Origin: Singulisphaera sp. GP187
Lineage (GTDB): Bacteria > Planctomycetota > Planctomycetia > Gemmatales > Gemmataceae
DNA length: 64,000 nt
Reading direction: 5' to 3'
Assembly: GCA_945905925.1 (NCBI GenBank)
Contig: CAMDQN010000010.1
Coordinates: 1-64,000 of the forward strand
The position numbers and the translations under genes are program-made. Position 1 is the first letter of the stretch, and the number at the start of each line of letters is the position of its first letter. The notes beneath the pieces were generated by a model. The model was not told the origin of the DNA and searched no databases. It worked only from the letters and a program-made list of their open reading frames with translations. This document shows positions 13,017 through 61,972 of the stretch, piece by piece.

Positions 13017-14504
13017 ATGAGTACCCACGTCACCGGACCAATCTGCGGTTCTCCGCGTGCCCCTCACGCCGGGGATTCGCACCTCAGAGTCGCGTTCTCG
13101 CGGTTTGAAATCAACGACTTCATCCGCTTGTGTTTCACCGATTCGCACGGCATACCGATCGTTCAGGCGCCGGTTCACGCCGAGTTGCAACAGTTCCTCA
13201 GCGACCACCCGAAGGCGCTGGTCGAACTACCACGCGACCACGGCAAGAGCTTCCAGTTGTGTTGCCGCGTGCTCTGGGAACTCGGGCGCGACCCCGGCTT
13301 GCGAATCAAGATCGTGTGCGCGACGGACACGGTCGCGGCCGAGCGCAGTCGGTTCTTGCGCGACAGCATCAACCAGAACGCGGCGCTTCGAAAGGCGCTG
13401 CCGCAGTTGCGTCGAGGTCATCCGTGGGCCGCTGAAGGGTTCACGATCTCTCGCCCGGCGAACGCGATCGGCCCGAGCGTCGCGGCGTTTGGTGTGGGTG
13501 CGGGTAGCACCGGGACGCGAGCCGATCTGCTCATCTGCGACGATGTCGTTGACGTTCGCGCGTTGCACAGTCGCGCCGAGCGCGATCGCGTCTCGGACTT
13601 CTTCACCAACAACCTCATGAACTTGCTCGAACCGCACGGACGGTTCTGGGGGCTGTGTACACCGTGGCACTCTGACGACCTCAACGCCCGCCTCAAGAAG
13701 AACGGCGCGTACGCGCTGTTCCGGCGCGCGATCGGTCCCAACCTTGAACCGGTGTGGGCCGAGAAGTGGCCGCCGGAACGCCTGCGGGCACGCAAAGCGG
13801 AGATCGGGAGCGCGTCGTTCGCGCGCGGTTACCGGCTCGTGCCGATCGCGGACGAAGAGACACCGATCCGCGCCGCGTGGGTACGGTTCTGGAGCGAACC
13901 AGCCGACTACGACACGGTGTTGCTCTCGGTCGATCCGGCCGTGAGTTCCTCCGCGAAGGCGGACTGCTCCGCGCTCGCGGTGTTGGGCCGCGTCGCGGGA
14001 AGACCTCTCCCCCTAACCCCCTCCCCTAAGAAGGGAGGGGGAGTCGATCAAAGCCCCTCCCTTCTTAGGGGAGGGGTTGGGGAGGGGTTCTGTGCGCCGG
14101 AAGTTCGCGTTCTCGCATGTACCGCGAGACGCGTGCCGGCGCCGGAGTTGGTCGCTCTCATCGACACCTTCGACCGGTTGTGGAACCCGGCGGTGATCCT
14201 GTTCGAGACGAACGCCGCGTTCCTCGGCATCAAGGACTTGCTCGCCCGCCACACCCGGTTCGGCCCGAAGTTGAAGAGCGTAACGCAGTCGGCGGACAAA
14301 GGCTCGCGCGTGTCCGCGTTCAGTGTCGCGGTGGAGAACGGCGCGTTCCGGTTGCTGGGCGATGGAGGCGTGGTCGATGTCGGGCAGCGCGAGTTGTTCG
14401 AGCAGATGACGACGTTCCCCTTCGGCGAACACGACGACCTGCTCGACGCCGCCGCGACCGGCTGCGCTTACCTGCTTGATCGAAGAGAGCCGCGGGTGTG
14501 GTGA
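13017..14504 (+). CDS. Terminase large-subunit-like ATPase/nuclease carrying an in-frame repeat insertion
   Basis: 495 aa. An N-terminal ATPase has a Walker A-like LPRDHGKSF (about residues 72-80), the following helix KIVCATDTVAAERSRF, and a Walker B-like ADLLICDDVVDVR. The C-terminal part has LLSVDPAVSSSAKADCSAL, EYHDDLLDAAA-like HDDLLDAAATGCAY and LFETNAAF, matching the RNase H-like terminase nuclease. In phages this protein packages DNA into capsids. No portal, capsid or small terminase gene is nearby, so it is probably a domesticated or remnant gene. Residues about 330-358 come from a dispersed palindromic repeat (14004-14090) lying between strands of the nuclease domain; the frame stays open through it. 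Confidence 0.8.
   Translation: MSTHVTGPICGSPRAPHAGDSHLRVAFSRFEINDFIRLCFTDSHGIPIVQAPVHAELQQFLSDHPKALVELPRDHGKSFQLCCRVLWELGRDPGLRIKIVCATDTVAAERSRFLRDSINQNAALRKALPQLRRGHPWAAEGFTISRPANAIGPSVAAFGVGAGSTGTRADLLICDDVVDVRALHSRAERDRVSDFFTNNLMNLLEPHGRFWGLCTPWHSDDLNARLKKNGAYALFRRAIGPNLEPVWAEKWPPERLRARKAEIGSASFARGYRLVPIADEETPIRAAWVRFWSEPADYDTVLLSVDPAVSSSAKADCSALAVLGRVAGRPLPLTPSPKKGGGVDQSPSLLRGGVGEGFCAPEVRVLACTARRVPAPELVALIDTFDRLWNPAVILFETNAAFLGIKDLLARHTRFGPKLKSVTQSADKGSRVSAFSVAVENGAFRLLGDGGVVDVGQRELFEQMTTFPFGEHDDLLDAAATGCAYLLDRREPRVW
14004..14090. repeat. Family A palindromic repeat inside the terminase-like gene
   Basis: Left arm 14004-14041 (CCTCTCCCCCTAACCCCCTC... ending AAGAAGGGAGGGGG) and right arm 14054-14090 are near-perfect inverted copies around a 12-base centre. 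Each arm is itself weakly palindromic around CCCTAAGAAGGG. It is read in frame as PLPLTPSPKKGGG then SPSLLRGGVGEG. The same family recurs at 16181, 27758, 35682, 36274 and 39194. Confidence 0.9.
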
Positions 14505-16159: not shown

Positions 16160-16180
16160 GAAGCATTGAGAGCCAAGAGA

Positions 16181-16319
16181 AGAACCTCTCCCCCCAACCC
16201 CCTCCCCTAAGAAGGGAGGGGGAGAAGAACCAAGAGGCGTGTCGGAAGTCGCGAGCGCAAGCGAGACGATCCTTTCTCCCCCTCCCTTCTTAGGGGAGGG
16301 GGTTGGGGGGAGAGGTTCT
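16181..16319. repeat. Family A repeat: perfect 45-bp inverted repeat
   Basis: Left arm 16181-16225 and right arm 16275-16319 are exact reverse complements over 45 bases, around a 49-base loop. It lies between convergent genes, so it could also end transcription from both sides. It is the cleanest copy of the family. Confidence 0.95.
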
Positions 16320-16324
16320 TCTCG

Positions 16325-27753: not shown

Positions 27754-27757
27754 AGGC

Positions 27758-27900
27758 AACCTCTCCCCCAACCCCCTCCCCTAAGAAGGGAGGGGACAAG
27801 CGGTGGGACTCGCGCCGCACCTTGTGAAACCGTGAGCGGCAGCGAACGGATGCCTTTTTCCCCCTCCCTTCTTAGGGGATGGGGTTGGGGGAGAGGTTCT
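27758..27900. repeat. Family A palindromic repeat between actC/D and actE
   Basis: Left arm 27758-27795 (AACCTCTCCCCCAACCCCCT... to AAGAAGGGAGGGG) and right arm 27861-27900 are inverted copies with one clear mismatch (GGGGATGGGG in the right arm). The loop is about 65 bases. The repeat fills nearly all of the actC/D-actE spacer. Confidence 0.9.
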
Positions 27901-30122: not shown

Positions 30123-30160
30123 GGCCGTCGTTTAGCGTTGGTCCCGCAGGGGGCCAAAAG
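30123..30160. repeat. Single arm of the TTTAGC family after actF
   Basis: The sequence CGTTTAGCGTTGGTCCCGCA followed by GGGGGCC is close to the arm at 30804 (CGTTTAGCGTTGACCCCGCA). Short internal pairing (GGTCCC/GGGGGCC) is weak. It begins just after the actF stop. Confidence 0.5.
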
Positions 30161-30798: not shown

Positions 30799-30832
30799 CG
30801 CCGTTTAGCGTTGACCCCGCAGGGGTCGCGCG
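30799..30832. repeat. Single arm of the TTTAGC family before ccoN
   Basis: CCGTTTAGCGTTGACCCCGC then AGGGGTCGCG. The internal GACCCC and GGGGTC can form a small hairpin. It fills the gap between ccoS and ccoN. Confidence 0.5.
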
Positions 30833-34222: not shown

Positions 34223-36988
34223 ATGCCTACCTGCGCAAACTGTAACGGGCCAATCACCGGAAGCGGGCACGCTGGCCGTGCCGCCGACCGCACCGCACCG
34301 CTGTACTGCTGCTTCGGGTGTCTCCGCATTGGTGAGCAGTCGTGCGCGGAAACTTCGTGTTGTGGGACTTCTCCCGCGAACGCTCGCGGCACGTCGGGCG
34401 GTCTGGGGCTTTGCCTCGGAATCGGTGTGCTGGTCGTCGGGCAGTCGATGATCTTCGGCCTCGCGCTGAACCTCCACGACGATGTACCCCTGCCGGTCCG
34501 TGCCTTCACGCAGTGGGCGATCTTCGCGGGCACGGTGCTAGTCGCACTGCTCCTCGGCGGGCCTCTTGTTCGTACAGCGTGGCGCGAACTCCGCCGCGGC
34601 CGGCTCACCATCGAAGCACTTTTTTTGCTCACGATGACCGGCGCGCTCGGCGCGTCGCTACAAGCACACGTCACCGGTCGCGGGAAGGTCTACTTCGAGG
34701 TCGTGTCGGTTCTGCTCGTCGTTTACACGCTCGGGAAGGTGATCGGCTCGCGTTCAAAGGCCGCGGCGCTGGCGAGTTCGCGCGCCTGGAGCAATCGACT
34801 TTGTGCGTGCCGGCTCGTGGACGAAGCGGGTTTCACGCGGCACACACCGGTCGCGGAAGTGCGAGTTGGTGATGTGGTCGAAGTGCGCCCGGGCGAACTG
34901 ATCGCTGTTGACGGCGTGATTCGCGAAGGCGTCGGGTTCGTATCGGAAGCTATCGTGAGCGGTGAGCCGTTCGCGGTGGTGCGCCGCCCCGGGGATCGTG
35001 TGCTGGCCGGGTCCGCGTCGTTCGACGCGATGTTTCGTATTGTCGCGACCACTTTCGGCACCGAGCGCGAAATCGACCGCTTGCTCGCGACTGTTGAAGA
35101 GGCGAGGGCGAGTGACAAGCCGTTGTCACTGCAGGGCCGTGCCGACCGACTGGGTCGGTGGTTCCTTCCGCTGGTGGTGTTCGTCGCGCTCGGGACGTTC
35201 GCGTTCTGGACGTTCTTCACCGGGTGGGAATCCGGGCTGTTCAACGCGATGTCGGTGCTGCTGGTCGCGTGCCCGTGCGTGATTGGTTTGGCGACTCCCG
35301 TTGTGATCTGGTCCGCGCTCAACCGCCTCGCGGAACGCGGCGTGATCGTGAAGAGCGGTGACGCCATCGAGCGTCTCGCAACGGTCAGTCGCGTGATGTT
35401 CGACAAGACCGGCACGCTGACCGAAGACCGCTTCGCGCTCGTGGACATCGAGACGACTTCAACCGGCACGGAACGCGCAAAGTTGCTCGGCTGGCTTTCG
35501 CTCGTGCAGGCGCGGAGCAACCACCCGGTCGCGAAGCCGTTTGCGGAGTTGCCACGACCGTTCGCGCCGGGCGAAGAGCCGCGTGTGATGTCCCTCGTGG
35601 CTGTGCCCGGTTGTGGCGTGGTCGCGGAGTTGGTGGAAGTGGATGGAAGACGTCACGAGATCAAGATTGGCATCGGCGCAGACCTACCCCCCCAACCCCC
35701 CTCCCTAAAGGGAAGGGGGAGTAAGACAATTCACGTCTCCGTTGACGGCGAACTCGTGGGAGTCGCTTCGCTGGCGGAACGCTTGCGCGATTCCACGCCG
35801 CTAGCAATCGCACACTTCGCGCGACTGGGGCTGTCAGTCGAAGTGCTAACCGGTGACGCGCCAGAACGCGCGGAATCGCTCGGCCTTCCTTCTGCGCGCG
35901 GCGGGATGCTCCCGGACGACAAACGCGCGGCCGTCGAAGGTGGGCGAGTGTTGTTCGTCGGAGACGGCATCAACGATGCCTCGGCGCTTGCGGTGGCGCA
36001 CGTCGGTGTTGCGCTCTCAAGTGGGACCGACCTCGCGGTCAGCGCGGCCCCCGTTACGCTCTACGGCTCCGACCTTCGCGCGCTGCCGTGGGCCATCGAA
36101 CTGAGCCGCGACGCCGTGCATGCCGTGCGAGTGAACCTCGCTCGCGCGGTGATCTACAATCTCGTCGGCATGACGCTCGCCGCGTCGGGCGTGCTTCACC
36201 CAGTCGTTGCGGCGCTGTTGATGGTGGTGTCGAGCCTCACGCTGATATTCTCGTCTACGCGGGTGGGGCGCGAAGAACCTCTCCCCCCAACCCCCTCCCC
36301 TAAGAAGGGAGGGGGAGCAGAACCAAACACAGAGGCGCGAACGCTGTCTTCTGTTTTAAGCCCCTCTCTTCTTAGGGGAGGGGTTGGGGAGGGGTTGCTT
36401 TCCTTCACCCACGCCGTTGCGTTCGCGCTGCAAGGCGGCGTCTTCCTGCTGCTCCTCGCGCCGTTGCGAGACCCTCTCGTGGCCGCGATCACCGTCGGCG
36501 CGTTCGCGCTCGCGGGGGCCGCGATTGCGTTCCTGTGGCACCGCTACGTGTTCCCGCACTGGGCGGACATGTGCTTCGGAATGCTCACGCTCGGCAACCT
36601 CGGAATGCTGCTCGGTTGGTGGGCCGACAACAGCTTCGCGGCTTTGCACGACCACGGTTGCTGCCTATGCGTAGAAGCCATGCGCGGCGGCGTGATGAAG
36701 CCGTGGATGTGGGTCGGCATGGTGGCGTTCGCGAACGTCGCGATGCGATGGCTCGGGCGAGGCTCGGTGACAACCCGTTGTCACTCGGTCGCGATGTGGA
36801 CCGGCGGGAACGTCGGCATGGTGTTGGGAATGCTCGTGGGCGGATGGTGCGCGGCGCAGCTCCAGACCGCGAACATGACTGTTGCGGTTGCGGCCAGCTT
36901 CGCAGGAATGACGTTCGGGATGCTTGTGGGCATGCTCGCGGGAACGGGCTTCTGCGAGCGGGCCTACACGTACTTCTTGACGAAGTAG
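34223..36988 (+). CDS. ccoI: Copper P1B-type ATPase CcoI with two in-frame repeat insertions and an extra C-terminal membrane domain
   Basis: 921 aa. The N-terminus is cysteine-rich (CANCN, LYCCFGCLRIGEQSC, CC) as in FixI/CcoI. P-type ATPase motifs: CPC 350-352 in the membrane, DKTGTLT from D394 (phosphorylated Asp), and GDGINDASAL from 580. It loads copper for the oxidase. Residues about 487-500 (LPPQPPSLKGRG) and 684-725 (PLPPTPSPKKGGG ... SPSLLRGGVGEG) are translated family A repeats. The usual ATPase ends near residue 683; the rest, about 195 residues, is an unusual region of helices rich in Met, Trp, Cys and His (WADMCFGMLTLGNLGML, HDHGCCLCVEAM). Two AGTGACAA-type palindromes also lie inside. 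Confidence 0.92.
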   Translation: MPTCANCNGPITGSGHAGRAADRTAPLYCCFGCLRIGEQSCAETSCCGTSPANARGTSGGLGLCLGIGVLVVGQSMIFGLALNLHDDVPLPVRAFTQWAIFAGTVLVALLLGGPLVRTAWRELRRGRLTIEALFLLTMTGALGASLQAHVTGRGKVYFEVVSVLLVVYTLGKVIGSRSKAAALASSRAWSNRLCACRLVDEAGFTRHTPVAEVRVGDVVEVRPGELIAVDGVIREGVGFVSEAIVSGEPFAVVRRPGDRVLAGSASFDAMFRIVATTFGTEREIDRLLATVEEARASDKPLSLQGRADRLGRWFLPLVVFVALGTFAFWTFFTGWESGLFNAMSVLLVACPCVIGLATPVVIWSALNRLAERGVIVKSGDAIERLATVSRVMFDKTGTLTEDRFALVDIETTSTGTERAKLLGWLSLVQARSNHPVAKPFAELPRPFAPGEEPRVMSLVAVPGCGVVAELVEVDGRRHEIKIGIGADLPPQPPSLKGRGSKTIHVSVDGELVGVASLAERLRDSTPLAIAHFARLGLSVEVLTGDAPERAESLGLPSARGGMLPDDKRAAVEGGRVLFVGDGINDASALAVAHVGVALSSGTDLAVSAAPVTLYGSDLRALPWAIELSRDAVHAVRVNLARAVIYNLVGMTLAASGVLHPVVAALLMVVSSLTLIFSSTRVGREEPLPPTPSPKKGGGAEPNTEARTLSSVLSPSLLRGGVGEGLLSFTHAVAFALQGGVFLLLLAPLRDPLVAAITVGAFALAGAAIAFLWHRYVFPHWADMCFGMLTLGNLGMLLGWWADNSFAALHDHGCCLCVEAMRGGVMKPWMWVGMVAFANVAMRWLGRGSVTTRCHSVAMWTGGNVGMVLGMLVGGWCAAQLQTANMTVAVAASFAGMTFGMLVGMLAGTGFCERAYTYFLTK
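35682..35720. repeat. Family A half-element inside ccoI
   Basis: A single arm: GACCTACCCCCCCAACCCCC followed by CTCCCTAAAGGGAAGGGGGA, itself weakly palindromic around CCCTAAAGGG. It is read in frame as DLPPQPPSLKGRGS, in the nucleotide-binding domain of the ATPase. Confidence 0.85.
36274..36397. repeat. Family A palindromic repeat inside ccoI
   Basis: Left arm 36274-36315 and right arm 36361-36397 are inverted copies, with a 45-base centre. The whole element is open in the ccoI frame, giving PLPPTPSPKKGGG and SPSLLRGGVGEG, the same peptides as in the terminase-like gene (14004). It lies at the joint between the ATPase core and the C-terminal membrane domain. Confidence 0.9.
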
Positions 36989-37775: not shown

Positions 37776-37815
37776 GTGGTCAACGTTTAGCGTTCGCCCT
37801 GGAGGGGCGAAAACA
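37776..37815. repeat. Single arm of the TTTAGC family
   Basis: AACGTTTAGCGTTCGCCCTG then GAGGGGCGAAAAC. The inner CGCCC and GGGGCG can pair. It lies between the permease gene and phnX. Confidence 0.5.
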
Positions 37816-39193: not shown

Positions 39194-39317
39194 AGAACCC
39201 CTCCCCAACCCCTCCCCTAAGAAGGGAGGGGCTTCAGACAGAAGACACAACCCTCCCCTGTCTGCTGTTTTGCTCCCCCTTCCTTCTTAGGGAAGGGGGT
39301 TGGGGGGATAGGTTTCT
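39194..39317. repeat. Family A palindromic repeat abutting the HD oxygenase start
   Basis: Left arm 39194-39232 (AGAACCCCTCCCCAACCCCT... to GAAGGGAGGGGC) and right arm about 39272-39317 (GCTCCCCCTTCCTTCTTAGG ... GGATAGG) are inverted copies with several mismatches. On the minus strand the end of the element reads GGTTGGGGAGGGGTTCTTAC directly before ATG, giving that gene its Shine-Dalgarno sequence. Confidence 0.85.
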
Positions 39318-39424
39318 TCCGCCCACCTTTACGAACTGGCGCGTAGACCCTTGCTCTGGTGCGTTCGTTCCCGATAGTATCGAAGCCTGGAACCATTTCC
39401 CGTCGTCGGAACCGGTGCTGCCTC

Positions 39425-47148: not shown

Positions 47149-47295
47149 GCCTGAGACCTCGGGTCGGAGAGTAGGACGTGTCCAACAGCGTAAGCCTTGC
47201 CGGTGTGAGTCTTTCACAACGTCCAGCGGCGGTTCCGTCCGTTTGCTCATTATACCCGCCGCCGCGACCGATACAACCGAACCCAAATGGCCACA

Positions 47296-48774
47296 TTACA
47301 GCGTGAGAAACCGCTGAAGGAACGGCCGCAGTGTCTCTTCGGGGTAGAGCACCCACGGGTAATCGCGGCGCCGAAGGATCGCGTTCGCGTCCACTTCGCT
47401 CCGCACGCGGCGCAACTCTTCTTCCGCTTCCGACACTCCTTTCGCGACCCCGGTCCGCAACCGCTCTTTGACGCGATGAAGCTTTCGGAACCATTCGCGC
47501 CGCGCCGCGTGGTCACCGCGTGGCGGTTCGTTCGCGGTGAGTGCGGAGTGTTCGCGAACCAGTTCCGTGTCGGCACCGGGGATCGCCTGCGGGTTCCATC
47601 GCAGGTCACGCACGCGGCGATCCGCGCGTGTGAGGTCATTCGCCGTCGAAGGAAACGCGGGCAGCGGAAGGTGAAGCGTTGCGGAGAGCACCTGATACGC
47701 GGGCGGTGTAATGCCGAAGTAGTCGCGGATGATGGTGTCGGTGACTTCGTCGTACTTCCCGCCGCCGATGCCGTGAATGAAGAAGTCACCGAGGCACACG
47801 CGAGCGAACAGCGTGAGAGTCAGCGCCCGTGGGCGGAGTTTGGTCACGTCGCTCGAAGCCGTCGCACGCTGACGTTTGCCTTCGCCCGTGCGAACCCAGA
47901 ATGGCGCTTCGCCTTCCGCGAGGTCCGGTGCCGGGTGATTGGCGCTGCGGATACTGTTCGCGTCGCGGTACGTGCGAATCGCCGTGTTGTACGCCAGACG
48001 GAATCGCGGAAGATCGTTGAGGATGTGCTGTGCGAATCGCGCGAACGCCGACGTTTGCGACAACCGGCTAACGGGCAGTTCAAGGTTGTCGCAGCCCCAC
48101 TCGCGTTCAAAGTGCTGACGAGTTGCAGTGAATCGTTCACCAATTCGCGAGTCCAGATCTTGATGAACGGCTTCGTGCCATGCTCTCCAGAGCAGTGGTT
48201 CGTAACCCCAGTTCGACCACAACGCTTGCGCTCGATCCGCAAACGAGTCGAACACGCAAACGTGTTCCGCGTCTTCAACGCCGCGGTCTTCGTAAGAGAT
48301 TTCGCCGCTAAAGGTGTCGAACGCGAGGCTCTCCAGGCGCACGGAAGCCGGGTCGCGGTCGGTGAACACCGGGAAGCGGAGCGAGGTGCTTTTGAGTGTG
48401 TCGTTATCGACGACGAGGTGAAGTGGGATGCCGCCGATCTTCTTGGCGAGGCCGTTGAGCGCGAAGTTCTTCACCCACACGCCGGAGTGCGACAACTCCG
48501 GCTGGTGCCCCGCGAGAAGAAGCGGCGCATTATCAGAGCCGCGACCGTGAGGGAGCGAACGATCACACGCTCCCTCACGGTCGCGGCTCTGCGCCAACTC
48601 CAGCACTTCGCGACGAGCCAATGCACGCAGTTCGCGAAGTGGAAGCCCGCCGATGATCACGTCGTCGCGGTCGAGCAGCTTGCGGTTCGCTTCGACCAGA
48701 GCCGGGATCGCGTCGAACGCGGGTTCTGCCAGCACAGCGCCGTATGCGGTGGGCACGCGATACTGATGCGCCAT
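47296..48774 (-). CDS. Uncharacterised protein with a BshC-like segment and a translated palindromic repeat
   Basis: 492 aa, ATG at 48774 overlapping the glycosyltransferase stop (TAATG). The frame extends upstream, but that is a shadow of the glycosyltransferase. Residues 63-80 (SRDREGACDRSLPHGRGS) are the translation of a perfect 23-bp palindrome at 48535-48590. Right after it comes LLLAGHQPELSHSGVWVKNFALNGLAKKIGGIPLHLVVDND, whose layout recalls the BshC segment TGQQxGLF...K...LA...PVFW.A.EDHD of bacillithiol synthesis. The resemblance is weak and the rest is unfamiliar. Coupled to the upstream glycosyltransferase gene. Confidence 0.6.
   Translation of the reverse strand: MAHQYRVPTAYGAVLAEPAFDAIPALVEANRKLLDRDDVIIGGLPLRELRALARREVLELAQSRDREGACDRSLPHGRGSDNAPLLLAGHQPELSHSGVWVKNFALNGLAKKIGGIPLHLVVDNDTLKSTSLRFPVFTDRDPASVRLESLAFDTFSGEISYEDRGVEDAEHVCVFDSFADRAQALWSNWGYEPLLWRAWHEAVHQDLDSRIGERFTATRQHFEREWGCDNLELPVSRLSQTSAFARFAQHILNDLPRFRLAYNTAIRTYRDANSIRSANHPAPDLAEGEAPFWVRTGEGKRQRATASSDVTKLRPRALTLTLFARVCLGDFFIHGIGGGKYDEVTDTIIRDYFGITPPAYQVLSATLHLPLPAFPSTANDLTRADRRVRDLRWNPQAIPGADTELVREHSALTANEPPRGDHAARREWFRKLHRVKERLRTGVAKGVSEAEEELRRVRSEVDANAILRRRDYPWVLYPEETLRPFLQRFLTL
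48535..48590. repeat. Family B palindrome inside the 492-aa gene
   Basis: AGAGCCGCGACCGTGAGGG... (48535-48557) and its exact reverse complement (48568-48590) form 23-bp perfect arms around a 10-base loop. On the minus strand the element is read in frame as SRDREGACDRSLPHGRGS. No second copy was found in this window. Confidence 0.95.
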
Positions 48775-49511
48775 TAGCGCGACCCTGGACACGGGCAACG
48801 CGAAGTTGTGCGCACCGCGGGCAGCACGTCGCGCTCGGCCGCGGCGAGTACCTCGCGGTAGTACGCAAGCCGCTGCTCGGGGTCGTTCATCACGCCGCCA
48901 AACGCACGGTTCGGATCGAGGTACAACCTGGGAACGCCGATCTCCTTCACGCGAAGCTCCTGGCGCGCCGCCTGCACCCACAGTTGAAGCGGCATCCCCC
49001 AGCCGCGTTCGGTGATGTTCAGTTTTTCGAGCGCGCCTCGCCGGTAAGCCTTGAAGCCGCAGAACGCGTCCGTCAGGTTCAACCCGTAGCGATCGTTGAT
49101 CTCGCGCGTGACGGCCGCGTTGATGAACCTGCGGTCCGTTGGTGCAGGCGTGTCTTGGCGGAAGTCGCGGAAGTAACGCGAGCCGGACACGATGTCGCAA
49201 TCGTGAATGGCTTCGAGCAACACCGGGATGCGTTCGGGTTCGTGTTGCCCGTCGCAGTCCATTGTCACAAGCACGTCGAAGTCGCGTTCGAGCGCGATGC
49301 CGAATGCCGAAATAAGTGCCGCTCCGTATCCGCGATTGGCCGGGTGGTCGATCCGCAGAAGCCCCGGTTCGGTGTCGAGCATCGCCGCGGTGCCGTCGGT
49401 GGAGCCGTCGTTGACGACGAGAATGTCGGGGCTGTATCGGCGCACTTCGGCCAGCACATTCGCGACGTGCTGAACCTCGTTGTAAACCGGAATCGCGGTG
49501 AGAATGCGCAT
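48774..49511 (-). CDS. Family 2 glycosyltransferase
   Basis: 245 aa. GT2/GT-A fold: ILTAIPVYNEVQHVANVLAEV, ILVVNDGSTDGTAAML, RIDHPANRGYGAALISAF, and metal-binding VLVTMDCDGQHEPERI. It lacks C-terminal membrane helices, so it is a soluble transferase similar in core to dolichol-phosphate-mannose synthase. Donor and acceptor are unknown. The downstream 492-aa gene begins at its stop, so the two are probably one operon. Confidence 0.9.
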   Translation of the reverse strand: MRILTAIPVYNEVQHVANVLAEVRRYSPDILVVNDGSTDGTAAMLDTEPGLLRIDHPANRGYGAALISAFGIALERDFDVLVTMDCDGQHEPERIPVLLEAIHDCDIVSGSRYFRDFRQDTPAPTDRRFINAAVTREINDRYGLNLTDAFCGFKAYRRGALEKLNITERGWGMPLQLWVQAARQELRVKEIGVPRLYLDPNRAFGGVMNDPEQRLAYYREVLAAAERDVLPAVRTTSRCPCPGSR

Positions 49512-49659: not shown

Positions 49660-49690
49660 TCGCCCCTCCGGGTCGAACGCTAAACGGCGT
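49660..49690. repeat. Single arm of the TTTAGC family before the prenyltransferase gene
   Basis: GGGTCGCCCCTCCGGGTCGA then ACGCTAAACGGCG, the reverse-complement orientation of the arms near 37776 and 30804. It lies in the 222-base divergent gap between the glycosyltransferase and prenyltransferase genes, where I see no clear promoter. Confidence 0.5.
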
Positions 49691-55104: not shown

Positions 55105-55220
55105 TTGTCGGGTGGGTCAAGGCTTTGCGCGGGCCCGCCAGCGCTGAGCTAACGCAAGAACGTTTTCTCGTGTTGGTGTCGCCGTGGCGGGCCTGCGCAA
55201 AGCCTTGACCCACCCGACAA
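55105..55220. repeat. Family F large inverted repeat
   Basis: Arms 55105-55140 (TTGTCGGGTGGGTCAAGGCT...GCCCGCCA) and 55185-55220 are inverted copies over 36 bases with one mismatch, around a 44-base centre. It fills the gap between the second TadE gene and the convergent gene at 55224. No other copy was seen in this window. Confidence 0.95.
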
Positions 55221-56406: not shown

Positions 56407-57516
56407 ATGTCCCGCTCTGGACGACCGACCGACGACAAGCCGCTTCCGGCGCTCTACGCCATGACGCACGGCGGAATTGAATCCACCGCAGCCGAAGAGA
56501 TCACACGCGACATCGGCGGCGAGGTAAAGAAGACCGCGCGCGGTCTCGTCGTGTTCCGCATGGACAACCTGAGTGACAAGGTGTTGTCACTGCGGACCAC
56601 GGAAGACGTGTTCTTGATGGCGTGGGGTTCTGATTCGCTCACGTACAAGTCGGACGACCTCGAAACGCTCAAGACCTGGACCGCGCGCAAACCGGACTGG
56701 GAACACCTCTTCAAGTTACACCACAAGATCAGGCCGAAGACAAAAGGCCGCCCGACGTACCACATCGTCTGTCAGATGCAGGGCGAACACGGGTTCCGCC
56801 GCGCCGACGCGCGGGCGGCTTTTATCGAAGGCCTGGCCGGCAAGATTCCGCAAGGCTGGCACTACAGCAACGAAAACGCGTGGCTCGAAATCTGGCTGAC
56901 GATCTACAGCAAAACCGCGGTGTGCGGCGTGCGGCTGAGCGACCGCTCGATGCGGCACCGGACGTACAAGCTCGACCACATCCAGGCGTCGTTGCGGCCG
57001 ACCATTGCTGCCGCAATGGTGCGGCTCGCGGGGATCGGGCCGGAGATGACCGTGCTCGACCCATTCTGCGGTGCGGGCACGATCATGGCCGAAGTGATTA
57101 CGGTGGCCGAGAAGCGGAGCAAGGCGGGTGCGGTGCGCGTCATTGGCGGCGACATCGACCCGAACGCGGTGTTCGTCACGTCGCAGAACTTGCAGACCGT
57201 GGGCCGCGCCGATCTCGCTCGCTGGGACGCGACCGCGCTGCCGCTGGGAAGCGAATCGGTGGACCGGATCGTGTCGAACCCGCCGTTCGGCAAGCAGCTC
57301 TCGTCGATCGAGAAAATCGGGCCGTTATACGAAGCGGCGGCGGAGGAGTGGAATCGCGTGCTGAAGCCCGGTGGCCGTGCGGTGTTGCTGGCGATGGAGA
57401 TCGAAGGGTTGAAGCGCGTGTTGCAGAGTCACCGGTGGTCGCAAGTGCGGCAGACCCGTGTGCGGTTGCAGGGTCTGCCCGCCGTGCTGACCGTGTGGAA
57501 CAAGCCGCTGACGTGA
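56407..57516 (+). CDS. THUMP-domain RNA methyltransferase (Trm14/RlmL type)
   Basis: 369 aa from ATG 56407 (an ATG at 56368 is in frame). Residues about 15-160 form a THUMP RNA-binding domain; the rest is a class I methyltransferase with DPFCGAGTIMAE at 218 (SAM-binding) and SNPPFGKQL at 290-298 (the NPPF/Y catalytic motif of N2/N6 methyltransferases). The closest families methylate guanine N2 of tRNA or 23S rRNA. The target is not settled. An AGTGACAA-N4-TTGTCACT palindrome at 56572-56591 encodes SDKVLSL. Confidence 0.9.
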   Translation: MSRSGRPTDDKPLPALYAMTHGGIESTAAEEITRDIGGEVKKTARGLVVFRMDNLSDKVLSLRTTEDVFLMAWGSDSLTYKSDDLETLKTWTARKPDWEHLFKLHHKIRPKTKGRPTYHIVCQMQGEHGFRRADARAAFIEGLAGKIPQGWHYSNENAWLEIWLTIYSKTAVCGVRLSDRSMRHRTYKLDHIQASLRPTIAAAMVRLAGIGPEMTVLDPFCGAGTIMAEVITVAEKRSKAGAVRVIGGDIDPNAVFVTSQNLQTVGRADLARWDATALPLGSESVDRIVSNPPFGKQLSSIEKIGPLYEAAAEEWNRVLKPGGRAVLLAMEIEGLKRVLQSHRWSQVRQTRVRLQGLPAVLTVWNKPLT

Positions 57517-57557
57517 CGCCGTTGCTTTTCAACGATCCGCAACTGAGCCAAAACCAG

Positions 57558-58250
57558 TCAGGACTTGACGATTGCGCACTTCGGCAACGCCTTCCTGAGT
57601 TCCTTGATGCCCGCGCCCGTCAACTGCGTGCCGTCCAGGTCGAGTTTGGTGAGGTTCGTGAGTGCCGAGAGTTCCTTCAGACCCGCGTCCGTCACCTGCG
57701 TGGATCGCAGGTGGAGTGTGGTGAGGTTTTTGAGTGCAGAGAGTTCCTTCAGCCCCGCGTCCGTCACTTTCGTGTCGCTCAGGTGGAGTGTGGTGAGGTT
57801 CGTGAGTGCTGAGAGTTCCTTCAACCCCGCGTCCGTCACCTTCGTGTCGCTCAGGTAGAGTGAGGTGAGGTTCGTGAGTGCCGAGAGTTCCTTCAGCCCC
57901 GCGTCCGTCACCTGCGTGCGGTTCACATCGAGTTTGGTGAAGTTCGTGAGTGCTGAGAGTTCCTTCAGCCCCGCGTCCGTCACCTGCGTGCCGCCCAGGT
58001 GGAGTGTGGTGAGGTTCTTGAGTGTTGCGAGTTCCTTCAGACCCGCGTCCGTCACCTGCGTGCCGCGCAGGTCGAGTTTGGTGACCGGTTTACCGGGTGC
58101 CTCTTCGTCGCGGGTGACCTGCCCACCCAACTTCTCCACGAACGCGACGGCGACTTCCTCGGCGCCTGCGTCCTCAGTGACGGGGGCCGGTGCAGGACGT
58201 GCGCACCCCACAGATACCATCAGCAGGATCACCAGCATCAACCGCGACAT
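57558..58250 (-). CDS. LRR lipoprotein, 7 repeat units
   Basis: 230 aa from ATG 58250. The N-terminus MSRLMLVILLMVSVGCARPAP is a lipoprotein signal (lipobox VSVGC). After a short segment VAVAFVEKLGGQVTRDEEAPGKP come seven 24-residue leucine-rich units of the type LTxLxLxxTxVTDAGLKELSALxN, ending with KALPKCAIVKS. It would be exposed from the membrane as a binding protein. First of three tandem paralogues reading the same way, with nearly identical leaders. Confidence 0.9.
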   Translation of the reverse strand: MSRLMLVILLMVSVGCARPAPAPVTEDAGAEEVAVAFVEKLGGQVTRDEEAPGKPVTKLDLRGTQVTDAGLKELATLKNLTTLHLGGTQVTDAGLKELSALTNFTKLDVNRTQVTDAGLKELSALTNLTSLYLSDTKVTDAGLKELSALTNLTTLHLSDTKVTDAGLKELSALKNLTTLHLRSTQVTDAGLKELSALTNLTKLDLDGTQLTGAGIKELRKALPKCAIVKS

Positions 58251-58400
58251 GGTTTCCCCTCGCACCGGGTGCATGAACGTCCGATACCGCCCCGATGCTA
58301 CCACGCCTCGAGACGACTCACGTGCGTGAATTGGGGAAACGGGTTCGGGGCGAGACCGACCACTCAACCCCACTCAAGAACCACTCCCTTGAGAAACTAC
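58251..58400 (-). promoter_or_regulatory. Conserved leader shared by the LRR paralogues (copy 1)
   Basis: About 150 bases upstream of the 7-unit LRR gene match the upstream regions at 59508 and 61846 almost base for base. All contain CACGTGCGTG and a stretch GGTTTCCCCTCGCACCG before the start. The conserved part probably holds the promoter. An in-frame extension also stays open across it, so it might be coding, but the lipoprotein signal favours the start used. Confidence 0.5.
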
Positions 58401-58424
58401 GATCCGCAACTGATCAAAAACCAG

Positions 58425-59507
58425 TCAGAACTTGGAGATTTTGCACTTCGGCAACGCCTTCTGGAGTTCCATGATGCCCGCGTCCGTCAACTGCGTCCTG
58501 CTCAGGTAGAGTGTGGTGAGGTTCTTGAGTGCTGAGAGTTCCTTCAGCCCCGCGTCCGTCAACTGCGTGAAGTTCAGGACGAGTGTGGTGAGGCTCTTGA
58601 GTGCTGAGAGTTCCTTCAGCCCCGCGTCCGTCACCTTCGCGCCGCTCAGGTCGAGTGTGGTGAGGTTCTTGAGTGCTGAGAGTTCCTTCAGCCCCGCGTC
58701 CGTCACCTGCGTGCCGCCCAGGTTGAGTGAGGTGAGGTTCGTGAGTGCTGAGAGTTCCTTGACGCCCGCGTCCGTCACCTGCGTGCCGTCCAGGTAGAGT
58801 GAGGTGAGGTGCTTGATCGCTGAGAGTTCCTTCAGACCCGCGTCCGTCACCTGCGTGTAGCTCAGGTTGAGTTTGGTGAGGTGCTTGAGTGCTGAGAGTT
58901 CCTTCAGCCCCGCGTCCGTCACCTTCGTGAAGCCCAGGTAGAGATATTTGAGGTTCTTGAGTGCTGAGAGTTCCTTCAGTCCCGCGTCCGTCACCTTCGT
59001 GTCGTCCAGGTTGAGTTCGGTGAGGTTCGTGAGTGCCGAGAGTTCCTTCAGCCCCGCGTCCGTCACCTGCGTGTGGTCCAGGTTGAGTGAGGTGAGGTTC
59101 GTGAGTGCTGAGAGTTCCTTCAGCCCCGCGTCCGTCACCTGCGTCCTGCTCAGGAAGAGTTGGGTGAGGTTCTTGAGTGCTGCGAGTTCCTTCAGCCCCG
59201 CGTCCGTCACATTCGTCCCGTACAGGTAGAGATATTTGAGGTTCTTGAATGCCGAGAGTTCCTTCAGACCCGCGTCCGTCACATTCGTGACGCCCAGGTT
59301 GAGTCCGATGACCGGTTTACCGGGTGCCCCTTCGTCGCGGATGACCTGCCGACCCAACTTCTCCACGAACGCGACGGCTCCGTCCTCAGTGATGGGGCCC
59401 GATGGGGCCGGCGGGGCCGGCGGGGCCGATGGGGCCGATGGGGCCGGTGCAGGACGTGCGCACCCCACGGTTACCATCAGTAGGGTCACCAGCATCAACC
59501 GCGACAT
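58425..59507 (-). CDS. LRR lipoprotein, 12 repeat units
   Basis: 360 aa from ATG 59507. Lipoprotein signal MSRLMLVTLLMVTVGCARPAP, then an alanine/proline/serine-rich stretch (APSAPSAPPAPPAPSGP) and VAFVEKLGRQV. Twelve 24-residue LRR units follow, ending KALPKCKISKF. It is the middle member of the tandem LRR set. The DNA units resemble those of both neighbours, which allows unequal exchange. Confidence 0.9.
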   Translation of the reverse strand: MSRLMLVTLLMVTVGCARPAPAPSAPSAPPAPPAPSGPITEDGAVAFVEKLGRQVIRDEGAPGKPVIGLNLGVTNVTDAGLKELSAFKNLKYLYLYGTNVTDAGLKELAALKNLTQLFLSRTQVTDAGLKELSALTNLTSLNLDHTQVTDAGLKELSALTNLTELNLDDTKVTDAGLKELSALKNLKYLYLGFTKVTDAGLKELSALKHLTKLNLSYTQVTDAGLKELSAIKHLTSLYLDGTQVTDAGVKELSALTNLTSLNLGGTQVTDAGLKELSALKNLTTLDLSGAKVTDAGLKELSALKSLTTLVLNFTQLTDAGLKELSALKNLTTLYLSRTQLTDAGIMELQKALPKCKISKF

Positions 59508-59660
59508 GGTTTCCCCTCGCACCGCGTGAATGAACGTCCGATACCGCCCCGATGCTACCATGCTTCGAGACGACTCACGTGCGTGAATTGGGGAAACGGG
59601 TTCGGGGCGAGACCGACCACTCAACCCCACTCAAGAACCACTCCCCCTAGAAACAACGAT
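59508..59660 (-). promoter_or_regulatory. Conserved leader shared by the LRR paralogues (copy 2)
   Basis: Matches the block at 58251 over nearly its full length, including CACGTGCGTG and CGGGTTCGGGGCGAGACCGA. The bases at 59640-59680 also match 58378-58430 (ACGATCCGCAACTGA then AAAACCAGTCAG), the 3' ends of the neighbouring paralogues, so the duplicated unit includes gene plus flanks. Confidence 0.5.
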
Positions 59661-59682
59661 CCGCAACTGAGCTAAAAACCAG

Positions 59683-61845
59683 TCAGTCCGTCAAGATGTC
59701 GCACTTCGGCAACGCCTTCTGGAGTTCCTCGATCCCCGCGTCCGTCACCTGCGTGCCGTACAGGTCGAGTCTGGTGAGGTTCTTGAGTGCCGAGAGTTCC
59801 TTCAGCCCCGCGTCCGTCACCTGCGTGAGGCCCAGGTGGAGTGAGGTGAGGTTCGTGAGTGCTGAGAGTTCCTTCAGCCCCGCGTCCGTCACCTTCGTCC
59901 CGTACAGGTAGAGTGTGGTGAGGCTATTGAGTGCTGAGAGTTCCTTGATGCCCGCGCCCGTCACCTTCGTGTCGTACAAGTAGAGCATGGTGAGGTTCTT
60001 GAGTGCTGAGAGTTCCTTGATGCCCGCGTCCGTCACCTTCGTGCCGCCCAGGTTGAGTTCGGTGAGGTTCTTGAGTGTTGCGAGTTCCTTCAGCCCCGCG
60101 TCCGTCACATTCGTGCCGTTCAGTTCGAGTTTGGTGACGTCTTCCGGTTTGGCGGGTCGTTTCTCGTCTTCGCCTGTCGCCAGAGTGAGGGTGTGGAGCA
60201 GGTTGATCTCTCGCAACACCGCCAAATTCCGGTCCGTCACCTGCGTGCCGTACAGGCCGAGTTCGGAGAGGTTCTTGAGTGCTGCGAGTTCCTTCAGCCC
60301 CGCGTCGTTCACCTTCGTCCTGTTCAGTTCGAGTGTGGTGAGGTTCTTGAGTGCTGCGAGTTCCTTCAGCCCCGCGTCCTTCACCTTCGTCCTGTTCAGT
60401 TCGAGTGTGGTGAGGTTCTTGAGCGCTGCAAGTTCCTTCAGACCCGCGCCCGTCACCTGCGTGCCGCTCAGGTCGAGTTTGGTGACGTCTTCCGGTTTGG
60501 TGGGTCGTTTCTCGTCTTCGCCTGTCGCCAGAGTGAGGGTGTGGAGCAGGTTGATCTCTCGCAACACCGCTAAAGTCCGGTCCGTCACCTGCGTGCCGTA
60601 CAGGTCGAGTTTGGTGAGGTTCTTGAGTGCCGAGAGTTCCTTCAGACCCGCGTCCGTCACCTTCGTGCCGTCCAGGTCGAGTGTGGTGAGGTTCTTGAGT
60701 GCCGAGAGTTCCTTCAGCCCCGCGTCCGTCACCTGCGTGGATCGCAGGTGGAGTGTGGTGAGGTTCTTGAGTGCCGAGAGTTCCTTCAGACCCGCGTCCG
60801 TCACCTCCGTGCTGCTCAGGTAGAGTGTGGTGAGGTTCTTGAGCGCTGAGAGTTCCTTCAGACCCGCGTCCGTCACCTCCGTGTCGTCCAGGTTGAGTGA
60901 GGTGAGGTTCTTGAGTGTGGCGAGTTCCTTCAGCCCCGCGTCCGTCACCTGCGTGGATCGCAGGTGGAGTGTGGTGAGGTCCTTGAGTGTGGCGAGTTCC
61001 TTGATGTCCGTCACCTTCGTGCTGCTCAGGTTGAGTGTGGTGAGGTTCTTGAGTGCTGCGAGTTCCTTCAGACCCGCGTCCGTCACCTTCGTTTCGCCCA
61101 GGTTGAGATTGGTGAGGTTCTTGAGTACTGCGAGTTCCTTGATCCCCGCGCCCGTCACCTGCGTTTCGCCCAGGTTGAGTGTGGTGAGGTCCTTGAGTGC
61201 AGAGAGTTCTTTCAGCCCCGCGCCCGTCACCTGCGTCCCGTACAGGTCGAGTGTGGTGAAGTTCGTGAGTGCTGCAAGTTCCTTCAGCCCCGCGCCCGTC
61301 ACCTTCGTTTTGCCCAGGTCGAGTGTGGTGAGGTTCTTGAGTGCTGCGAGTTCCTTCAGCCCCGCGTCCGTCACCTGCGTGCCGAACAGGTCGAGTCTGG
61401 TGAGGTTCGTGAGTGCCGAGAGTTCCTTCAGCCCCGCGTCCGTCACCTTCGTGTTGCCCAGGTCGAGTTTGGTGAGGTTCTTGAGTGCCGAGAGTTCCTT
61501 CAGCCCCGCGCCCGCCACCTCCGTGCCGTGTAGGCTGAGTTCGGTGAGGTCCTTGAATGCTGAGAGTTCTTTCAGCCCCGCGTCCGTCACCTTCGTCCAG
61601 TACAGGTGGAGTGTGGTGAGGTTCTTGAATGCTGCGAGTTCCTTCAGACCCGCGTCCGTCACCTTCGTCCCGTACAGGTGGAGTGTGGTGACCGGTTTAC
61701 CGGGTGCCTCTTCGTCGCGGGTGACCTTCCCACCCAACTTCTCCACGAACGCGACAGCCTTGTCTTCCGCGTCGTCGGCTCGAACCGGGGCGGACGAACA
61801 CAGGATCACTCCCAACAGGAGAACGCACAGCATCAACCACGACAT
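59683..61845 (-). CDS. LRR exported protein, 26 repeat units, with an internal duplication
   Basis: 720 aa from ATG 61845. The leader LMLCVLLLGVILCSSAPVRADD has a normal signal peptide rather than a lipobox at the end, unlike its paralogues. It has 26 LRR units of 24 residues, except unit 10 (VTDIKEL), which lacks three residues. Units 16 and 20 share an unusual block VTDR..LAVLREINLLHTLTLATGEDEKRP..PEDVT, nearly identical DNA at 60133-60227 and 60480-60574, showing a recent segmental copy. It is the largest of the three tandem genes. Confidence 0.9.
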   Translation of the reverse strand: MSWLMLCVLLLGVILCSSAPVRADDAEDKAVAFVEKLGGKVTRDEEAPGKPVTTLHLYGTKVTDAGLKELAAFKNLTTLHLYWTKVTDAGLKELSAFKDLTELSLHGTEVAGAGLKELSALKNLTKLDLGNTKVTDAGLKELSALTNLTRLDLFGTQVTDAGLKELAALKNLTTLDLGKTKVTGAGLKELAALTNFTTLDLYGTQVTGAGLKELSALKDLTTLNLGETQVTGAGIKELAVLKNLTNLNLGETKVTDAGLKELAALKNLTTLNLSSTKVTDIKELATLKDLTTLHLRSTQVTDAGLKELATLKNLTSLNLDDTEVTDAGLKELSALKNLTTLYLSSTEVTDAGLKELSALKNLTTLHLRSTQVTDAGLKELSALKNLTTLDLDGTKVTDAGLKELSALKNLTKLDLYGTQVTDRTLAVLREINLLHTLTLATGEDEKRPTKPEDVTKLDLSGTQVTGAGLKELAALKNLTTLELNRTKVKDAGLKELAALKNLTTLELNRTKVNDAGLKELAALKNLSELGLYGTQVTDRNLAVLREINLLHTLTLATGEDEKRPAKPEDVTKLELNGTNVTDAGLKELATLKNLTELNLGGTKVTDAGIKELSALKNLTMLYLYDTKVTGAGIKELSALNSLTTLYLYGTKVTDAGLKELSALTNLTSLHLGLTQVTDAGLKELSALKNLTRLDLYGTQVTDAGIEELQKALPKCDILTD
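60133..60574. repeat. Internal 95-bp duplication within the large LRR gene
   Basis: The blocks 60133-60227 and 60480-60574 are almost the same base for base (both begin GGTGACGTCTTCCGGTTTGG and end with CTCTCGCAACACCGC), 347 bases apart. Four LRR units separate them. The block is not an LRR and marks one duplicated segment. Confidence 0.85.
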
Positions 61846-61972
61846 GGTTTCCCCTCGCACCGCGTACATGAACGTCCGATACCGCCCGATGCTACCACGC
61901 CTCGAGACGACTCACGTGCGTGAATTGGGGAAACGGGTTCAGGGGCGAGACCGACCACTCAACGTGGGCGAC
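61846..61972 (-). promoter_or_regulatory. Conserved leader shared by the LRR paralogues (copy 3)
   Basis: Upstream of the 26-unit gene, the same leader as at 58251 and 59508 recurs with CACGTGCGTGAATTGGGGAA and GACCGACCACTCAAC. The match ends near 61972, where the following DUF1553 gene begins to differ. Confidence 0.5.

Follow-up and report, generated by a model that had tools for sequence, protein, structure and literature searches.

A palindrome within a terminase-like gene

The window analysed here, 64,000 nucleotides at the start of contig CAMDQN010000010.1 of Singulisphaera sp. GP187, contains a terminase-like gene whose reading frame runs through a long palindrome. This raises the question of where the palindrome came from and how the gene remains readable around it. 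Our answer, in which we have high confidence, is that a mobile element of a family that we call A inserted in frame and free of stops into a loop of the terminase, and that such loops, together with intergenic spacers, are refilled by unrelated palindromic families in related species.

The 495-residue protein has no match in Pfam. Its identity as a terminase was instead found by PHROGs (PHROG 38, terminase large subunit, E 3e-68), and T7-type maturase/terminase ATPases in the PDB match it by profile with an E value of 3e-15. The gene and the parts of its palindrome are as follows.

13017 to 14504, plus strand: terminase-large-subunit-like gene, 495 aa, carrying the element (open reading frame; PHROG; PDB profile match)
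14003 to 14043, plus strand: left arm of family A (subtype A1), an outer tail followed by the inner hairpin CCCCTCCCC-TAAGAA-GGGAGGGG (inverted repeat; arm consensus)
14044 to 14050, plus strand: variable bases between the arms, 7 nt (inverted-repeat map)
14051 to 14091, minus strand: right arm of family A (subtype A2), inverted, 100% complementary to 39194-39234 (consensus)

Both arms lie within the gene as the initial annotation had placed them, the reading frame crosses the palindrome without a stop, and nothing indicates a frame error in the sequence. The translated insert reads RPLPLTPSPKKGGGVDQSPSLLRGGVGEG. The cores of the two hairpins are 13 nt apart, which assigns the element to the short class (13-25 nt), and as single-stranded DNA the palindrome is predicted to fold with -38.3 kcal/mol (z = -6.5 against shuffles). 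The insertion site is a variable loop in the nuclease part of the terminase, probably a strand-turn-strand connection; the turn is deduced from the sequence alone, because the AlphaFold model of the protein (pLDDT 47) is too poor for placing the loop.

The inserted residues are absent from related terminases

Twelve congeneric terminase orthologs were aligned. The loop, which lies between the conserved motifs VLGR and EVRVL, measures only 9-24 nt in 7 of them. The nearest ortholog (L037 of the sister genome G005; protein 90% identical) has an ordinary short loop and lacks exactly 90 nt, and the flanks of the insert are conserved in orthologs without the palindrome. The PHROG 38 alignment is interrupted at residue 326 of the window protein and runs from 34 to 462 in the element-free ortholog (E 1.6e-73), where it covers both the ATPase and the nuclease parts. 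The short loops and the unbroken PHROG match in the G005 protein show that the residues of the insert are extra. The initial annotation had expected about 29 added residues, to be absent from homologues lacking the palindrome; the absence was borne out, and the net gain relative to G005 is 30 residues.

Four of the congeners carry palindromes of three other kinds at the terminase loop, all in frame: family B in G011, family C in G008 and G015, and one belonging to neither B nor C in G012. Since unrelated hairpin elements occupy exactly the same protein loop in relatives, the same spots have been filled repeatedly by different elements.

Family A is dispersed through the genome as paired hairpins

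The core of family A is a nearly self-complementary 23-mer. With up to 2 mismatches, it matches the 6.47 Mb genome 271 times, counted by strand, whereas the reversed control gives no match. For this draft genome of 251 contigs, the genes near the elements were studied at a sample of loci holding 61 family A clusters. An inverted pair of two arm subtypes, A1 with AGAACCTCTCCCCCCAAC and A2 with AACCCCTCCCCAA, makes up 54 of the 61. The pairs measure 85-151 bp in total, have inner distances of 13-25 or 36-66 nt and share the outer consensus AAG-AACC. No flanking direct repeat beyond 200 permutations was detected in 41 copies, and TA ends are absent. The initial annotation had also reported intergenic copies, and the window contains several besides a second in-frame one:

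16177 to 16323, strand not assigned: intergenic family A element, a 50-bp perfect inverted repeat (inverted-repeat map)
27758 to 27898, strand not assigned: intergenic family A element, with a family J hairpin in the corresponding spacer of G005 (inverted repeat; synteny with G005)
36266 to 36403, plus strand: second in-frame family A element of the window, in a P-type (E1-E2) ATPase gene, open reading frame 34223-36988 (pair scan; Pfam)
39194 to 39324, strand not assigned: paired family A element, with coding signals of opposite strands to either side (inverted repeat; codon model)

The core is multicopy in only three genera of its taxonomic family, and its named matches are mainly Gemmataceae and Gemmata records, which places the window genome in that group. 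Exact cores were also seen at L324 and L328, in rumen metagenome bins labelled Bacteroidaceae and Prevotellaceae, where contamination, chance or transfer may be responsible. Family A is most likely a dispersed, REPIN-like palindromic mobile element with two inverted hairpin arms and no target duplication. Its mobility is suggested by presence and absence between sister species.

Two other repeat features of the window were noted. Long arrays of a 72-bp repeat (24 codons) at 57450-61900, in blocks separated by near-identical spacers, look like leucine-rich-repeat-type genes on the minus strand. At 55105-55220, a 56-nt inverted repeat (82% complementary, 4-nt loop) is unlike the families studied.

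Family A lies in frame in many genes

At least 21 of the 54 pairs (39%) lie in frame and free of stops, flanked on both sides by coding segments that agree in strand and frame; the count was made with a simple codon model trained on the same DNA, which missed one probable in-frame copy (C9:23123). In-frame insertion in the manner of Rickettsia palindromic elements (RPE), as first proposed for the terminase, thus extends to many genes of the genome. According to Pfam, the hosts include genes for a P-type ATPase, a UPF1-like helicase, UvrA, a dihydrolipoamide acyltransferase and an M16 peptidase, and further ones for QueG, UbiD, a CobW GTPase and two DUF1553 proteins. At most 3 other pairs look like gene disruptions. 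With a chance of 0.11 that a family A sequence is both in frame and open, 21 of 24 in frame gives p ~1e-17, and this strong bias indicates that purifying selection acts. Pooled across ortholog pairs, dN/dS was 0.147 upstream of the element and 0.143 downstream. As the downstream value is as low as the upstream one, selection sees the protein beyond the element. The element would accordingly be translated as part of the host proteins, as judged from these sequence comparisons, and the insert is presumably neutral to protein function.

In 12 of 20 host genes the element lies between or outside Pfam domain matches. The acyltransferase element sits in the linker between the lipoyl and E3-binding domains, and another family A element lies at the junction of the chalcone-synthase N and C domains. 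Such positions, like the in-frame bias, favour an explanation by tolerance alone, in which insertion is random and selection spares only the elements in the few permissive loops and spacers; neither site preference nor replacement would then be needed. We give this explanation a little less than an even chance, and the sister genomes provide the evidence that counts against it.

The same loops and spacers hold unrelated families in sister genomes

For 20 further host genes, a search of G005 and G017 for the orthologous loops gave 32 readable sites. A palindromic element was present in 27: family A in 12, an A-like element in 3 and an unrelated family in 12 (8 paired palindromes and 4 single hairpins). 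The remaining 5 had no clear element. Another family thus occupied 12 of the 20 sister loops without family A, yet these proteins have almost no insertions elsewhere, with only 2 indels of at least 10 residues in 13,086 aligned residues outside the loops; tolerance alone does not readily account for this. The helicase loop holds A in the window genome, F in G005 and G in G017. For three genes surveyed across the genus, 33 of 45 loops were palindromic at p < 0.05, with several families represented, and 2 of the 45 were not readable through, namely the acyltransferase of G001 (two stops) and a helicase copy of G006 (frame change). The G001 acyltransferase (L261, G001:C2:926500-927700) carries an A-like element, and its two in-frame stops imply a broken gene or a sequence error. 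The families at reused sites are true dispersed repeats, with up to 346 matches for B and 225 for G in one genome.

Intergenic sites behave in the same way. Nine sister sites, stemming from eight intergenic family A elements, were tested, and all 9 were palindromic, three with A and six with another element; 2 of 9 queries had no two-sided syntenic sister match, and 2 were matched in both sisters or only in the second. The spacer at 27756, syntenic with G005, is occupied by A in the window genome and by a J hairpin in G005. Protein tolerance is irrelevant at such sites, so their reuse weakens the idea that tolerance is the whole explanation, but does not remove it, because spacers are short and hairpins are common there.

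Replacement at the level of the site is an alternative that we consider plausible, again falling slightly short of an even chance. Existing elements would attract or shelter newcomers that nest within and displace them, leaving different families in different species. Two loops, that of GT87 in G017 and that of the amine oxidase in G005, contain family F nested inside A, and A-like arms are stacked in the helicase loops of G001, G002 and G003. These two nested and three stacked cases show that one element can land in another, and the occurrence of reuse in both coding and intergenic sites agrees with replacement. Many refilled sites, however, contain one clean family with no remnant of another, the helicase loop with its A, F and G in three sisters being an example. 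A perfectly clean empty site is rare, because the elements lack sharp ends and small hairpins occur even in some of the short sister loops.

Other families, but not family A, flank RAYT genes

The genus has many Y1 transposase genes, and several of RAYT type are flanked by families B, D, E, J and K (B at L107, L119 and L138, D at L063, E at L062, J and K near other Y1 genes). Family A flanks 0 of 43 Y1 genes examined, a subset of those in the genus, and the idea that a detected RAYT has family A as its REPIN was therefore rejected. It is possible that a RAYT acting in trans or another enzyme mobilises family A.

The Y1/RAYT genes L107, L119, L138, L063, L062, L104, L109 and L120, each amid its own palindrome family, amount to a rich planctomycete collection of REPIN-RAYT pairs. 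Family D (GTTTAGCG...CCGCAGGGG) has copies in the window at 30128-30152, 30801-30825, 37783-37807 and 49663-49687; its RAYT-like gene L063 lies elsewhere in the window genome. An inverted pair of the RAYT-linked family B at 48537-48588, inside the open reading frame 47287-48777 (plus strand), is probably another in-frame insert.

Relation to known palindromic elements

RPE and Wolbachia palindromic elements are hairpins of about 100-150 bp found in frame in many conserved genes and also between genes, and one locus can be occupied by different RPE groups in orthologous genes (PMC2229807, PMC3767692). Family A resembles them as a palindrome of similar length with both in-frame and intergenic copies, and by analogy it appears to work as they do. 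It differs in being GC-rich, in its paired hairpins and in its free-living planctomycete lineage, whereas RPE are defined by sequence homology to the RPE families and by their confinement to Rickettsiales. As far as can be judged from GC content, host and architecture, family A is not an RPE by descent.

For RPE-4, RPE-6 and RPE-7, hotspots and a common origin were named as alternatives, and the authors favoured common origin (PMC3767692). The corresponding reading here, that a single ancient insertion diverged beyond recognition and so left different inserts at one site, has that precedent and the gradation of A and A-like arms into each other in its favour. The families sharing sites here are clearly unrelated, in contrast to the RPE case, and several are transposase-linked, which makes common origin unlikely. 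The cores of A, B, F, G and J are unrelated and each recurs in many places; several families have their own Y1 genes, and copies match their own family, not each other. We regard a single diverged insertion as very improbable. That the repeat is not really in the gene but a product of annotation or assembly can practically be dismissed: the genome is a draft with repeats and a G005 contig breaks at an element (C15_10142), but the same in-frame pattern recurs in more than 20 genes, separately assembled congeners, including single-contig genomes, carry equivalent inserts, and selection continues downstream of the element.

Family A shares with REP, BIME and REPIN elements and their RAYTs a high copy number, inverted hairpin pairs and the lack of a target duplication. 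It differs from REPINs and REPs in that the conserved 5' GTAG/CGTC foot tag is absent and none of the 43 Y1 genes examined is a cognate RAYT flanked by it. Most REPs lie outside genes, but about 39% of the family A pairs sampled are in frame within them. Intragenic REPs have been catalogued in Opitutus terrae, Rickettsia and others, and REPs have been placed in Planctomycetes too (PMC3733652). The recB genes of Xanthomonas campestris and X. oryzae carry different REPs at about the same coding site, and other genes in that study have REPs at different sites (PMC3733652). The recB case resembles ours in that two REPs occupy about the same coding site in orthologs, but it concerns one gene in two species, whereas reuse is the rule here, in 20 genes as well as at sites between genes.

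Prokaryotic MITEs (Correia/NEMIS, ERIC, RUP) are short, non-autonomous elements with terminal inverted repeats, some of which are read in frame (PMC2229807). Family A also has inverted ends. It was rejected as a classic MITE, having neither enriched target-site duplications nor TA ends, and a search for a parent insertion sequence found none. A literature search of open papers found no report of in-frame elements in Gemmata. In-frame REP and RPE insertion and hints of site sharing are already known; the scale, the lineage and the reuse of sites by multiple families are new here.

A model for insertion and refilling

In the proposed model, a hairpin pair would be copied to a new site without duplication of the target, transposition being the presumed route, and one family A copy would have jumped into the variable loop of the terminase nuclease part. 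Gene-breaking insertions would be lost, whereas an insert would be kept if it lay in a flexible loop and had a suitable length and frame. The terminase insert would owe its survival to a length and stop-free frames that leave the gene readable, and it would be translated as an unneeded surface loop. A filled site may then stay open to more elements, with newcomers either inserting independently or landing in an older element and replacing it; some of the families are RAYT-linked. More tentatively, and at rather less than even probability, unrelated families may recognise or shelter in the same sites, so that fixed loops and spacers act as a rotating dock in which in-frame replacement steadily yields new surface loops on conserved proteins.

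In-frame palindromes have so far been seen as a peculiarity of Rickettsia and Wolbachia, with scattered REP examples. Here, in-frame palindromic insertion is a genus-wide process in a free-living lineage and involves many element families. Since it is unrelated families that share a loop, the finding bears directly on whether the RPE-4, RPE-6 and RPE-7 sites are hotspots or one diverged insertion (PMC3767692). It also provides a list of loops that can accommodate 20-50 foreign residues, of use in studies of protein evolution and in tag placement.
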